A DNA stretch of 55,755 bases, from positions 1 through 55,755 of the forward strand of contig JADZDJ010000006.1 of the NCBI GenBank assembly GCA_020851115.1. Direction: 5' to 3'. How positions within the stretch are numbered: the first letter of the stretch is position 1; every line of letters begins with the position of its first letter. Of the stretch, positions 38,095 through 44,057 are shown in pieces. A program made the translations under genes and the position numbers. Origin of the DNA: Pirellulales bacterium (lineage in GTDB: Bacteria > Planctomycetota > Planctomycetia > Pirellulales > JADZDJ01). Below the pieces are notes generated by a model. That model did no database searches. It worked only from the letters and a program-made list of their open reading frames with translations, and had not been told where the DNA came from.

Positions 38095-39315
38095 CTATTC
38101 AATCCAGCCGCCTCCCAGCACGCGCTCGCCATCGTAGACCACGGCCGCTTGACCTGGCGCAACGCCGTGGCGAGGGATATCGAACTGCACGTGGAAACGA
38201 TCGTTGCTCAAAGGAGTCAGCAGCGCTGGTTTGGCTGCGCTATTATAGCGGATTTGCACTTCGCACCGCATTGGCGCGGCCAGTGCCTCGACAAGCCAAT
38301 TGGCCCGGTCAAACGTCAAGCCGCGACGGGCCAGTTCTTCATGCCGACCAATGACAACTCGCCGCGTTTCAGCCTCAATTCGAGTTACATAGTATGGCTC
38401 TCCCATTGCCACACCGAGACCCTTTCGCTGACCAATCGTAAACGATTCGATGCCGTCGTGTTCGCCGACAACCGTCCCATCGGTCAACACAATCTCGCCG
38501 CCAATATGGTGAGCCTGAAACTCTGAATCCTGAACTCTGACCCCTGAACTGTCCCTCCTTCCGCGCACAAACTCCCCATGATGCCCGCTGGTGACAAAGC
38601 AAATCTCCTGACTGTCCTTCTTGTCGGCGACGCGCAGTCCCAGCTCGCGCGCCAGCTCCCGTATTTGAGGCTTCCGAAAATTGCCAACTGGCAGCCTCAT
38701 TCGCGAAAGATATTTTCGAGCCACGCCAAACAGCACATAGGACTGATCCTTGTCCGCATCGAGGCCACGCAGCAACTGTGTCTCTGCCATTCCACCTTCC
38801 TGAGTCTCGAATCCCGAACTCTGAACCCTCGCGTAGTGCCCCGTCGCCACAAATTCCGCCCCGACGCTGTCGGCATATTCAAACAGCTTGCCGAACTTCA
38901 GCCAGTTGTTGCACATCACGCAAGGATTCGGCGTGCGTGCGGCGGTGTATTCGGCAACGAAGTAGTCGATGATGCGACCGAAGTCCTCGGTCATGTCGAG
39001 CGCATAGAACGGAATGTCGAATCGATCCGCCGCCCGCCGGGCATCCTCCGCATCCGACGCCGTGCAGCAGCCTTGTTTATGATCGGCCCGTTGCACAATC
39101 GGCAGTGTCGCTGTTGCTTGTGAGCCACTGGCAAGCGAAGTCTGCCCGTGCTGCACCGGAGTGGAAGTCGAATTCGCCGCAGTCGCACAAGCCGTCGGCT
39201 CGGTGATCCCATGCCGCATGAAGACGCCGACGACCTGATGTCCTTCGCGACGCAGTAGCCCAGCCGCCACGCTGCTATCAACCCCACCCGACATCGCCAG
39301 CACAATTCTCGCCAC
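38095..39315 (-). CDS. mnmA: tRNA-uridine 2-sulfurtransferase MnmA
   Basis: A 406-residue protein. The PP-loop is MARIVLAMSGGVDSSVA; the first catalytic Cys lies in RTPNPCVMCNNWLKFG and the second in KKDSQEICFVTSG. The KQGCCTASDAEDARRAAD segment is the usual planctomycete form, preceded here by a Ser/Thr/Ala-rich insertion of about 30 residues. GLDADKDQSYVLFGV and the C-terminal GVAPGQAAVVYDGERVLGGG complete the match. It places the 2-thio group on U34 of tRNA for Lys, Glu and Gln. Two loops (about residues 165-175 and 255-270) are encoded by short CTGAAC-type DNA repeats, an oddity described separately. Operon with thpR. Confidence 0.94.
   Translation of the reverse strand: MARIVLAMSGGVDSSVAAGLLRREGHQVVGVFMRHGITEPTACATAANSTSTPVQHGQTSLASGSQATATLPIVQRADHKQGCCTASDAEDARRAADRFDIPFYALDMTEDFGRIIDYFVAEYTAARTPNPCVMCNNWLKFGKLFEYADSVGAEFVATGHYARVQSSGFETQEGGMAETQLLRGLDADKDQSYVLFGVARKYLSRMRLPVGNFRKPQIRELARELGLRVADKKDSQEICFVTSGHHGEFVRGRRDSSGVRVQDSEFQAHHIGGEIVLTDGTVVGEHDGIESFTIGQRKGLGVAMGEPYYVTRIEAETRRVVIGRHEELARRGLTFDRANWLVEALAAPMRCEVQIRYNSAAKPALLTPLSNDRFHVQFDIPRHGVAPGQAAVVYDGERVLGGGWIE
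38513..38552. repeat. CTGAAC-type short repeats inside mnmA (loop 2)
   Basis: The plus strand reads CCTGAAACTCTGAATC, CTGAACTCTGACC, CCTGAACT in tandem, a degenerate 6-8 bp unit. It codes for about 13 residues of MnmA (RDSSGVRVQDSEFQA) absent from typical homologues, and the frame is kept. Confidence 0.6.
38798..38831. repeat. CTGAAC-type short repeats inside mnmA (loop 1)
   Basis: The plus strand reads CCTGAGTCTCGAATCC, CGAACTCTGAACCCT, close to the repeat at 38513-38552. It codes for the loop RVQSSGFETQEGGMAE between two conserved MnmA segments and keeps the frame. Confidence 0.55.
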
Positions 39316-39476: not shown

Positions 39477-41402
39477 CTACTTCCCGCTGTTAGCCCGATT
39501 CACTCCTTGGCTATACGCCTTGTACTGCTCAGCATATTCCGCCGGGGGAGCAGTGCGGCGACCGCTGAAAAGGCCGCGCTGTTTGTCGCTGGTGAGATCG
39601 TTGTCGCGGCGGTCGGTGCGCGGCGGTCGGAGGCCAAGGCTACGCATGGCATCTTCGGCCTCGCGTCGCTGATCGTCGTTGGGATTGGGGCGCTTGACGT
39701 CCTGCAAGCGACGCTCCTGGCGTTCGATAAATTGCTGGGCTTCGTCGCGGGTCCAACCAAGTTGATCGAGGAGTTTGTCGGCGTCTTTGCCGCCTTTTTG
39801 AAGCGAGTTCTTCAAATGATCGAGCGCCAATTCGGTCGCCTTCTTGGCATAGTTCAAATTGGCCTCGTCGGGTTTGATGGGAGTTGGCGGCGTGGAACTT
39901 CCTGCGGCGGCTCCGTCACCCCCGGAACCGTCGGCCGCACCTTGCGAACGCCGCTGCTTTTGTTCCTCGGGCGAGGTGGTGTTTTTGCGAAGATCTTGGG
40001 CTTTGTTCTGATTGGGCTGTCCTTGTTGGTTTTGATTTTGCGAGTCCTGCTTTCTTGGATCCCCCTGGGATTGATCGGAATTGCCGCGATCGGGTTTGCC
40101 TTTCGACGGTTGCTGGCTTTGATGGCCTCCAGATTTGTCACTGCCATTGCTGTTTCGCATGGTTGAGCCACTGCCTTGCTCGTCGCCGGCTTGGCCGGTG
40201 GGTTGGTCGGACTTCTGATCGCCACCGAGTTGATCGGAGTTTTCGCCTTTGCCCGGCTCGTTCGCGCGACCGCTACCTTCATCCGCCGCCGTGTTCTTGC
40301 CAGCCGAGCCTTTGCCTTGCTTGCCGCCGTCCTGTCCGCCGCCTTTGGCGCCGTCGCCCGATTGGCTGCCGTCTTGTTGACCTTTGGAATTTGATTCGTG
40401 CTTGCTGACGCTGGGGGAATCGCCTTCGCCTTTGTCGCCGGAATTTGAATTGTCTTGCTGCTTTTTGTTGTTGGATTTGGCCTGCTGCTGTGGATCGGGC
40501 GGGTTGCCGTTTTGCTGGTCTTGCTTGCCGGCACCAAGATTGCCTTGCTTATTTTGCGAAGCGGCGTCAGGCTGTTGTTGCTGTTCTCGTTTGTTTTGCG
40601 GCTGCTGATGGCTCGCTTGCGATTGCTGCGATTGCTGCGATTGCTGCTGTTGCTGCTGTTGCTGCTGTTGCTGCTGTTGCTGCTGTTGCTGCTGTTGCTG
40701 CTGTTGCTGCTGTTGCTTTTCTTGGCCGGATTGCTGACCTTTTTTGTCCAGTCGATTTTTGCTCGATGGCTCCTGTCCAGCTGACTGATTTTCATCCGTG
40801 GGTTGCGCCTGGGAATTCATGTCGGGACGCTGCTGATCTTGTCCAAATTTGGGCTGATCTTGTGTTTGCTGCCCTGGCTGCGGCCGATCCGACTTTAATT
40901 GGTCGCCGGCCGCTGTCTGATCGGGCTGATTTTGGGCAGGTTGCTGACCGGTTGATTGCTGTTGATCGTCGTGTGAATTTTGACCGGAGGTCAGTTTGTC
41001 ATTTCGCAGATTGCCGGATGGCTTTTGAGCGTCGGAAGATTTGTCGCCAGCGGATGGTTGCCCCTCTCGATGATCGTCTCCGACTTGTTCCGACGGTTTG
41101 GGTTGATCGCCAGCTTGCGCGCTGCTGGGGTCTTTTTGGCCGCGTTGTTCTTGTCCGCGTTCGCCAGCCTGTGGATTTTGCGGCTGATCCTGACCGCGCT
41201 GTGTGTCTGAATTTTGATTTTGACTCGATTGTGGATTCTGTTCGCTCTGCTGATCGCGCTCTTGGCCATGGGGGTTTTGCCCTGCAGCAGACTGCTTTCC
41301 TTGATCGCGCTGCTGTGACGGGTCGCCGGACTGTTCACGATCGGCCGATTGCTGGTTTTCGGGATTTGATTTGGAATTCTGCTGCTGGTTGCGGTTTTTC
41401 AA
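39477..41402 (-). CDS. Gln/Asn-rich giant protein, C-terminal part after an in-frame stop
   Basis: This is the second part of a frame that runs unbroken from 44057 to 39477 except for one TAA at 41670-41672. The frame is already open from 41669; the coordinates here start at a TTG (41402) that could serve as a start codon. The region is almost wholly Gln, Asn, Ser, Asp, Lys and Gly, with a poly-Gln run of about 25. Its last 130 residues form a conserved-looking globular end: DEANLNYAKKATELALDHLK, DKLLDQLGWTRDEAQQFIER, DAMRSLGLRPPRTDRRDNDL. Planctomycete proteins of this type end the same way. Whether this half is made (readthrough, internal start) or dead is open. Confidence 0.6.
   Translation of the reverse strand: MKNRNQQQNSKSNPENQQSADREQSGDPSQQRDQGKQSAAGQNPHGQERDQQSEQNPQSSQNQNSDTQRGQDQPQNPQAGERGQEQRGQKDPSSAQAGDQPKPSEQVGDDHREGQPSAGDKSSDAQKPSGNLRNDKLTSGQNSHDDQQQSTGQQPAQNQPDQTAAGDQLKSDRPQPGQQTQDQPKFGQDQQRPDMNSQAQPTDENQSAGQEPSSKNRLDKKGQQSGQEKQQQQQQQQQQQQQQQQQQQQQQQQQSQQSQQSQASHQQPQNKREQQQQPDAASQNKQGNLGAGKQDQQNGNPPDPQQQAKSNNKKQQDNSNSGDKGEGDSPSVSKHESNSKGQQDGSQSGDGAKGGGQDGGKQGKGSAGKNTAADEGSGRANEPGKGENSDQLGGDQKSDQPTGQAGDEQGSGSTMRNSNGSDKSGGHQSQQPSKGKPDRGNSDQSQGDPRKQDSQNQNQQGQPNQNKAQDLRKNTTSPEEQKQRRSQGAADGSGGDGAAAGSSTPPTPIKPDEANLNYAKKATELALDHLKNSLQKGGKDADKLLDQLGWTRDEAQQFIERQERRLQDVKRPNPNDDQRREAEDAMRSLGLRPPRTDRRDNDLTSDKQRGLFSGRRTAPPAEYAEQYKAYSQGVNRANSGK
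40641..40712. repeat. Eight perfect 9-bp tandem repeats encoding poly-Gln
   Basis: TTGCTGCTG on the plus strand repeats eight times without error, with related GATTGCTGC units just before. On the coding strand this gives CAGCAGCAA, i.e. Gln only. Such pure tandem arrays change copy number easily; each 9-bp step keeps the reading frame. Confidence 0.9.
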
Positions 41403-41669
41403 GATTCGCTCGATGCCCTTGCCGTCGTCGGCGCCATCGGCGCGAACTGGAGAATTGTCCGGTTGCTGACTACTCGATGGGCCTTGTTGCTGCCCCTGCT
41501 GATTCCCAGTGTTGGGCTGGTGTTGGTCGTTTTTCGCAAACTGATCCTGACGGGTGCCGCTGGACTGACCGGCCTGCGGCCGCTGGTTGTTTGTGCCTTG
41601 ATCGCCGCGCTTACCATTGGACTGGTTGCGATCGGATTGGCCGGTCTGTTTGTTGTCACCTCCTTGGTT

Positions 41670-44057
41670 TTAATTGCCGGATTGCTTGTCACCTGCTTGC
41701 TTGCCTTGCTGAGGATTGTCGCTGGCATTTTGCTTGTCGCCTTGCTTCCCGTCGGCGCTCGGTTGTTGTTTTGGATCTTTGCCGTCGGCTGTATCTTGGT
41801 TTTTTGGTTGCGGATCACTTTTTTGCTGTCCGTTCTGTTTCTGATTGTTCTGATCCGATTTTTGCTGCTGGTTGTCGCCTTGCTGTCCATCGTCTTGATG
41901 TTGCTGGTTTTGCTTGTCGGGCGGCTGATTCATGGGGCGTTTTTGGTCGTGCTTGTCTTGATCGCCCTTGTTGTTCTGATTCGGCTGTTTCGGATTGGAA
42001 CCTTGATTGTCGTTGGGGATCGTGCGCGATTGGTTCTTGTTCGGCGGGACACCGTTGGCTTTATCGGGCTGTTGATTGGCGTTCTTGGCAGCGTTATCCG
42101 GTTGTTGCTTGTCTTGGGACGGTGGCTGGGTAGGATTACTGGGAAAATCGCCATCGCGCTGCGGATTGTTAAGCTCATCGCGGCTGCGATTCTCGTCGCC
42201 AGATTGCTGCGGATCGCCGGATTGTGGATTCTGCTCTTTGCGCGATCCGTCTTGTTGCTTCTGATTCTGAGAATCGGCTTTGTTCTGGCGGTCGCGATTT
42301 CCAGCATCGCGATTTTGTGGATTGGATTGCTGCGCGGCACCTTCGCTATCGCGATCATTTGGCCGGTTTTCGCTGGCCGGATCCGGCTGCGGATTGTCTG
42401 GCTGGCGCTGTTGGTCGCGACCAGTCGTATCAGACGCGACGATACGAATTCGCTTCTCGGTCGAAATTACCTCGTTCGCATCCGGCGACTTGTCGTCTCT
42501 TGCAATTGCTCGGTAATGAACGACATCGCCAACTTTTAGTTTCAACTGTGGCGGCAGAAATTTGTACTTGCCGACGAACGGTCCGCGATGCGGTGCGTCG
42601 GCAAGCAGCGGTTGGCTGAGGACTTTACCGTGCTCCGTGCTGGCTTCGAGTGTCACACTTCCCAAGGCAAAATCTGGGTCGCGGGCCTTGATTTCAAAAG
42701 TCGCTGCACCGTTGAGAGGTACTTCGATTTCTTCTTGTTCTGGCGCTAGGATTTGTACTTCCGGAGCTAGATCCGGAGTGACTTCAATGTTGTGGCGAAC
42801 CGGCTTGGGGTTTTCAACGCCCTGCGGAGTGACGAAGCGAAGCTGGTAGCAGTCGAACTCCGCTTTAGTGCGGTCACTGTTCATCGCCAGAGTCAAGGTG
42901 ATCTTGGCGGACTGCCCAGAAACCGTCAGCGAGCGGTCTTGCCTGCCGTCGCAGGAAAAATCGATCGAGGCCGATTTGATCGATTGATTGGCCGTGGCAT
43001 GAATCGTGACTTCGGTCCCCTCAATGGCCTTCAAGTCGCCGCGGTTTTTCACCGTCGAAGAGGGAATCTCGGTATAGGCAGGATATTTGTAGTCGATGCG
43101 ATCGACGACGATTAGCGGCGCAGCCGTTGCCTCGATGCGAAAGCTCTTGCTGCGAGCATCGCCAGCTTCGATGCGATACTCCATGTCTTGCTGCACTCCT
43201 AGTTCTCCTTCGGGAAGTGTCGCCGTGTGGCGGTAACCGCCGGTGGGCAGGTGCATCCTTACGGCGCGTTCGACCACTTGCCGATCGGCAGTCGAATAGA
43301 TCAGCGACACTTCGTCATCGCTCGAAAGTCCGTCGAGTTCGGCCGATATCTTAACCGGTTGGCCGCAAAAAGCGGATGTGCTGCCCGGCTGAATGTCTCG
43401 AATCGTCACGCGAGAAGGTGCCTGCAAATCGGCCCAGGGCAGAATCACTCTCGCTGCCGATGTAAATGGGTTTTTTGGCGAAACAATGAAGTACAGTGCA
43501 AACACGGCAACCAGCGCGATTAGCGCATAGCCAGAATGAATCAGCCGCGTCCGATCGACGGCCGTTTCCGCGGGTAAGTTGGAGATGCCCGTTGCCGCCT
43601 GCTCTTCAAGCGCCCGAAACACGTATGGCGAAAGCCGTTCGCGCCGCGGTCGAAGCAGCAGAAAATTGATGAGGCTGTTTTTCAGGGAAGGCTTGCTGTG
43701 TTCGATCGCTTGGGCCGCATAAATGGGATTCACCCGGCCAAACAGCGCCGGCAGAACCGTGGCTGCCAGCCAATAGCTTGTGCCGCCGACAAAAACAAGG
43801 CAAAACAGCAGGCGGCCCCACGTGCCTAGACCATGAGGGATAATCCAATGATCCAGCACCGCTGCAATGAGAAAGAATGCTACAGCCGCCAAACCGAGCG
43901 CCATCAGCCCAGCGGAGATTTCGACAATTTTTACTTGGCCGCGCGTTTTGCGAAGCTGCTTTTCGATGAGCTTATCGAAATCGACGGCTTTTGTCGTTTT
44001 CGATCGCGAACCCGGTGTCAATGGTTCCGCTTCGGATGGGGCTATTCCCGTTGCCAT
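41670..44057 (-). CDS. Large membrane protein with Gln/Asn-rich tail (N-terminal part)
   Basis: A 795-residue product up to the TAA at 41670. Residues 1-45 are charged. Three membrane spans follow at about 46-73 (ISAGLMALGLAAVAFFLIAA), 82-105 (LLFCLVFVGGTSYWLAATVL) and 176-195 (YALIALVAVFALYFIV). A DUF4175-like extracytoplasmic part (about 200-525) has Ig-like strands: VTIRDIQPGSTSAFCGQPVK, IDYKYPAYTEIPSSTVKNRG, APEVQILAPEQEEIEVPLNG, KVGDVVHYRAIARDDKSPDA. From about 540 it turns into a Gln/Asn/Asp/Lys-rich tail. After the stop the same frame continues in the same style for about 730 codons, so the ancestral protein had about 1,526 codons. Planctomycete homologues usually sit with MoxR ATPase/DUF58 genes, which are not seen here. 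Confidence 0.72.
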   Translation of the reverse strand: MATGIAPSEAEPLTPGSRSKTTKAVDFDKLIEKQLRKTRGQVKIVEISAGLMALGLAAVAFFLIAAVLDHWIIPHGLGTWGRLLFCLVFVGGTSYWLAATVLPALFGRVNPIYAAQAIEHSKPSLKNSLINFLLLRPRRERLSPYVFRALEEQAATGISNLPAETAVDRTRLIHSGYALIALVAVFALYFIVSPKNPFTSAARVILPWADLQAPSRVTIRDIQPGSTSAFCGQPVKISAELDGLSSDDEVSLIYSTADRQVVERAVRMHLPTGGYRHTATLPEGELGVQQDMEYRIEAGDARSKSFRIEATAAPLIVVDRIDYKYPAYTEIPSSTVKNRGDLKAIEGTEVTIHATANQSIKSASIDFSCDGRQDRSLTVSGQSAKITLTLAMNSDRTKAEFDCYQLRFVTPQGVENPKPVRHNIEVTPDLAPEVQILAPEQEEIEVPLNGAATFEIKARDPDFALGSVTLEASTEHGKVLSQPLLADAPHRGPFVGKYKFLPPQLKLKVGDVVHYRAIARDDKSPDANEVISTEKRIRIVASDTTGRDQQRQPDNPQPDPASENRPNDRDSEGAAQQSNPQNRDAGNRDRQNKADSQNQKQQDGSRKEQNPQSGDPQQSGDENRSRDELNNPQRDGDFPSNPTQPPSQDKQQPDNAAKNANQQPDKANGVPPNKNQSRTIPNDNQGSNPKQPNQNNKGDQDKHDQKRPMNQPPDKQNQQHQDDGQQGDNQQQKSDQNNQKQNGQQKSDPQPKNQDTADGKDPKQQPSADGKQGDKQNASDNPQQGKQAGDKQSGN

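Follow-up and report, generated by a model that had tools for sequence, protein, structure and literature searches.

A single in-frame TAA interrupts the gene of a large planctomycete membrane protein: a probable recent nonsense change or consensus error

The window (the whole stretch of 55,755 nucleotides that was analysed) carries on its minus strand a frame of 1,526 codons (44057 to 39477), which is open save for a TAA at codon 796. A reading made from the sequence only had described one lone in-frame stop at 41670-41672 in this frame, and this has been confirmed by translation and by stop counts in six frames: in the gene stretch the gene frame has two stops, the TAA and the terminal one, and the other five frames have 18 to 65. 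The nucleotide context quoted there around the TAA and the position of the end domain downstream of it are also as described. The features of the gene are as follows.

39477..44057, minus strand: whole interrupted gene, with ATG at 44057 and terminal stop at 39477-39479; one frame in orthologues
42402..44057, minus strand: N-terminal region, codons 1-552, with long membrane helices and Ig-like beta-sandwiches (profile alignment, AlphaFold2 pLDDT 90.3, partial Pfam DUF4175 match)
42432..43418, minus strand: Ig-like beta-sandwich stretch, model residues 214-542 (AlphaFold2 model, fold comparison)
41673..42401, minus strand: linker before the stop, codons 553-795, of low complexity and weakly conserved
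41670..41672, minus strand: premature TAA, codon 796 (translation of the frame)
39831..41669, minus strand: linker after the stop, codons 797-1409
41373..41435, minus strand: conserved linker stretch GADDGKGIERIL..., codons 875-895 (above the 95% shuffled level in 29 of 64 relatives)
40164..40394, minus strand: conserved linker stretch, codons 1222-1298 (GDGAKGGGQ ... SAGKNTAADEGSG ... GGDQKSDQPTGQAG; three sliding windows, 51, 52 and 36 of 64 relatives)
39480..39830, minus strand: C-terminal helical domain, codons 1410-1526 (profile matches, model)

The gene is a member of an uncharacterised planctomycete family, in which N-terminal membrane helices and Ig-like beta-sandwiches are followed by a long linker rich in Gln, Gly, Ser and Asp and by a short helical C-terminal domain. 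The protein had been called Gln/Asn-rich, and this can now be given more precisely, the linker being 23% Gln, 11% Gly, 10% Asp, 10% Asn and 10% Ser. A tandem array of period 9 (TTGCTGCTG on the plus strand) at 40623-40717 of the window encodes a poly-Gln run of the linker. In an AlphaFold2 model of the N-terminal region (49 sequences, mean pLDDT 90.3), long helices extend to residue 205 and beta-sandwiches occupy residues 218 to 540, while the C-terminal domain has been modelled as short helices with modest confidence (pLDDT 68.9). The top ranks of Foldseek and VIA-align were Ig-like or fibronectin-like modules of a generic kind, with no specific relative. TM-scores by query length lay between 0.13 and 0.24, the highest VIA Z was 10.9, for an alignment of 184 residues with an rmsd of 9.8 A, and no function follows from such generic matches. 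A sequence search of PDB gave no match at E 0.1. Since the protein of the window and two relatives were without a match in NCBIfam at E up to 10, it was not possible to place it with an alphaproteobacterial low-complexity family.

The N-terminal half matches Pfam PF13779 (DUF4175) with 28.4 bits, just over the curated cut-off of 27.3, and 28 of 49 family members match this profile at E 0.01 or better. However, the match spans only positions 176-338 of the 825 of the profile, and three of the four full-length relatives tested had no match at E 0.01, the fourth being below the cut-off. AdvA of Acinetobacter baumannii is, in the passages of PMC7481262 that concern it, likewise a membrane protein with a DUF4175 label, but its DUF4175 domain is placed there before two TM helices near residues 203-238. 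The two are likened by description and not by sequence, so that a division role shared with AdvA might serve as a lead only.

Relatives of this protein have been collected from planctomycete genomes. A single-protein query of genome contigs found none, but an alignment query found 112, the best 80 of which are the named loci examined here. The named-genome loci are from Planctomycetota, and many are labelled Pirellulales, Thermoguttaceae, Bythopirellula, Blastopirellula, Aeoliella or Adhaeretor. The N-terminal 552 residues had a match in every one of the 57 genomes covered when relatives were searched for (the window's own included), some of the weaker matches probably being paralogues, and the C-terminal 117 residues had one in 56 of the 57. 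In a wider sample of the class, the C-terminal domain was found in 73 of 98 genomes, including all 23 of the same order (own genome counted).

Both ends of the protein lie in one uninterrupted frame in 62 of these best 80 of 112 loci; the remaining 18 of the 80 are cut by a contig end, and none of the 80 is split by a stop. The codon comparison with relatives that had been proposed from the sequence showed no TAA at this site in any of the 62 named loci that are fully covered (best 80 of 112), and orthologues are uninterrupted across it, as is expected for a gene interrupted by nonsense. No genome of the same genus was present among the relatives searched; the two relatives of the same family are both intact, with frames of 1,535 and 1,553 codons and N-terminal identities of 57% and 56%. 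Among 20 further loci, some of which are on the same contigs as loci among the 80, 13 are one frame, four run off the contig end, two consist of a C-terminal piece only, in both cases due to a contig end, and one is interrupted. The interrupted locus (L043 9378-13064, G039:C398) contains an assembly gap and, where its linker is briefly out of frame, two stops.

The sample of the class also contained ten C-terminal frames shorter than 1,000 codons, the window's own included. Five of the other nine were fetched: four stop at a contig end, and one (L215 4612-10086, G091:C2) has its N- and C-terminal domains in different frames owing to a linker frameshift on a contig of 5.3 Mb. The remaining four are at contig starts, as judged from their coordinates. 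Relatives with two separately started proteins, which the sequence-only reading had named as a finding that would speak against an interrupted gene, were therefore not found, the short C-terminal frames being contig ends and one frameshifted copy. Broken copies exist elsewhere, yet no orthologue has been seen with two separate starts. Since the loci L043 and L215 are also broken, the linker may be a region in which assembly often fails or true lesions often arise. An accumulation of contig ends in the linker was considered and dropped, because by eye contigs often end upstream of it too. Separately, two pieces of an N-terminal match at G032:C506:1967-3624 are in different frames, perhaps by a frameshift.

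The frame and composition of the gene had been said to be kept over 4.6 kb, and the codon statistics agree with this. The third-position GC of the linker is 0.564 upstream of the stop and 0.575 downstream, the CAA:CAG ratio of the linker is 29:22 before the TAA and 74:75 after it, and the codon-position composition and the mix of Gln, Asn and Asp codons are similar on both sides, so that a coding signature is present in the same frame before and after the stop. In blocks of 15 codons covering the 60 codons on either side of the TAA, linker-like residues were found in the gene frame only. A pair of compensating frameshifts around the TAA is ruled out by this confinement to one frame and is unnecessary, and one substitution is sufficient, as had been proposed for the origin of the stop.

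Conservation along the linker has been assessed by comparing sliding 21-residue windows with the linkers of 64 intact relatives and with shuffled linkers. The five best-separated windows start at codons 1251, 1222, 1389, 1278 and 875, all after the TAA, and pass the 95% shuffled level in 52, 51, 58, 36 and 29 of the 64 relatives, in that order. The window over the TAA itself passes this level in 16 of 64, and the best window wholly upstream of it in 11 of 64. Because the best-conserved windows are all downstream of the TAA, the part lost by termination there contains conserved linker stretches as well as the C-terminal domain.

If the two parts were now two genes, the second would have to be started internally, which we regard as very improbable. 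An exact AAGGAGGTGA, a Shine-Dalgarno-like word, does occur just past the stop at 41656-41665 (minus strand), but with up to one mismatch allowed the window contains this word three times, where chance alone would give 2.10, and no start codon lies at a suitable distance from it. There is no in-frame ATG, GTG or TTG until codon 886, 89 codons on, which is a TTG inside a conserved stretch; the first in-frame ATG after the TAA is at codon 1080. The second part would be without membrane helices, and two starts are seen in no relative that has both ends on its contig and no other lesion. Separate expression of the two parts is accordingly unlikely.

Downstream of the TAA, 730 codons have neither a further stop nor a second lesion. 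Since 312 of the 6,570 possible single changes in this part would create a stop, about 62 random substitutions would give at least one stop with a 95% chance. When the C-terminal domain is compared with 62 outgroups, the window's protein has a mean identity of 0.364 and its two relatives have 0.358 and 0.323, and thus there is no faster divergence after the stop; the corresponding values for the N-terminal domain and 80 outgroups are 0.416 against 0.421 and 0.414. No sign of relaxed selection has been found in the post-stop codons or in the domain identities. The lesion is taken to be recent, polymorphic or an error.

An intact frame which diverges no faster than that of its relatives would also be expected if an amino acid were inserted at the TAA, by programmed or basal readthrough, often enough for full-length protein to be made, and the TAA is in a weakly conserved part of the linker, which would probably accept an extra residue at this place. 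Nevertheless, the stop is not conserved: among the best 80 of 112 named loci, the 62 with full coverage are all without it. The 47 tRNA genes found are all given sense anticodons by ARAGORN, and there is no suppressor among them, but with a genome 98.76% complete a tRNA gene may be missing from this set. The TAA is an ordinary stop in this genome (76 TAA, 81 TAG and 78 TGA in 235 sampled long ORFs with a complete stop), and UAA is given as the least leaky stop in the relevant part of PMC5289835. Programmed readthrough is thus unlikely, and we give readthrough of either kind hardly any weight. A tolerated leaky allele is equally improbable in our judgement: basal misreading, e.g., by tRNA-Gln, would fill a disordered Gln-rich linker that is indifferent to the residue, and a short form would coexist with some full-length protein, the long form being under selection.

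The stop might also be present only in the sequence, the cells carrying a sense codon at codon 796. Such a consensus or assembly error is possible, though we think it doubtful, and the lack of visible decay past the stop is consistent with it. The genome is as fragmented as a MAG would be (5.2 Mb in 304 contigs, 98.76% complete, 3.54% contamination) and low-complexity repeats are present in the same gene. We take the source genome to be probably a MAG; no 16S gene was found in it, in a search which missed this gene in 5 of 14 control genomes too. On the other hand, the base concerned lies outside the only tandem array of the gene (40623-40717), and no second such split was found in the 456 kb sampled. 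This genome sample comprised 455,755 bases, window included, in which only splits with ORFs of at least 200 codons on both sides are visible. Among its 239 long ORFs there are 11 cases of neighbours that share a frame and are separated by one stop, and the window's pair is the only one with the first start more than 27 codons away and a positive near-stop coding score on both sides. (A coding-score scan with strict thresholds returned two natural gene neighbours and missed the window's stop, and the scan of ORF pairs was used instead.) The absence of a second split is a mild argument against a poor consensus.

Among the 54 intact named loci that extend far enough downstream, 31 have a FAD protein, which we take to be nadB, as the next gene, and in 23 this neighbour is missing. 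In the window the gene is followed by mnmA (38095-39315), and the FAD protein is on another contig (G000:C146:17165-18772), where it is 84% identical to that of one relative (G001). A contaminant contig was considered because of this displaced neighbour and is ruled out, since aceE, mnmA and the interrupted gene are all closest to the two genomes of the same family and 23 of 54 loci are also without the FAD neighbour. Upstream of the orthologue in G001 (L036 9516-15406) are a gene for a TPR-CHAT protein and a protein-kinase gene; the TPR-CHAT protein had no match in the window's genome in a search run without a positive control.

Our explanation, held with a probability of about 90%, is that this is a single gene broken by a single nonsense change that is recent, or by a consensus error, with nothing mechanistically special about it. 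The TAA at codon 796 would have arisen by substitution of one base, either in the cell itself or solely in the consensus of the assembly, in a gene otherwise encoding one long envelope protein. We lean towards a real nonsense allele, either fixed or carried by part of the population. If so, the product would be 795 residues long and would keep the membrane helices, the Ig-like domains and 243 residues at the start of the linker; it would be without the conserved stretches of the linker and without the C-terminal domain, and would presumably be defective. Four options had been left side by side at the outset; a recent nonsense change and a sequence error both fit, and programmed readthrough and separate expression are not supported by the intact relatives, the tRNAs and the start codons.

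This case resembles ordinary nonsense alleles and pseudogenes of assembled genomes in having one stop, intact orthologues and no surrounding decay, but differs from them in that an unusually large number of sites in the Gln-rich linker can turn into a stop by a transition. The linker contains 205 possible changes of this type (0.239 per codon), against 0.074 per codon for mnmA and 0.066 for aceE, both of which are also in the window, and the gene is a large target accordingly. Literature searches on nonsense mutation in Gln-rich or Pirellulales proteins, on in-frame stops of planctomycetes and on strain heterogeneity in MAGs gave nothing usable.

An annotation should list the two ORFs as a single interrupted gene and not as two proteins. 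The family is of more use than the stop itself: it is that of a large membrane protein without known function, which is widespread in the order and has conserved stretches within its linker.
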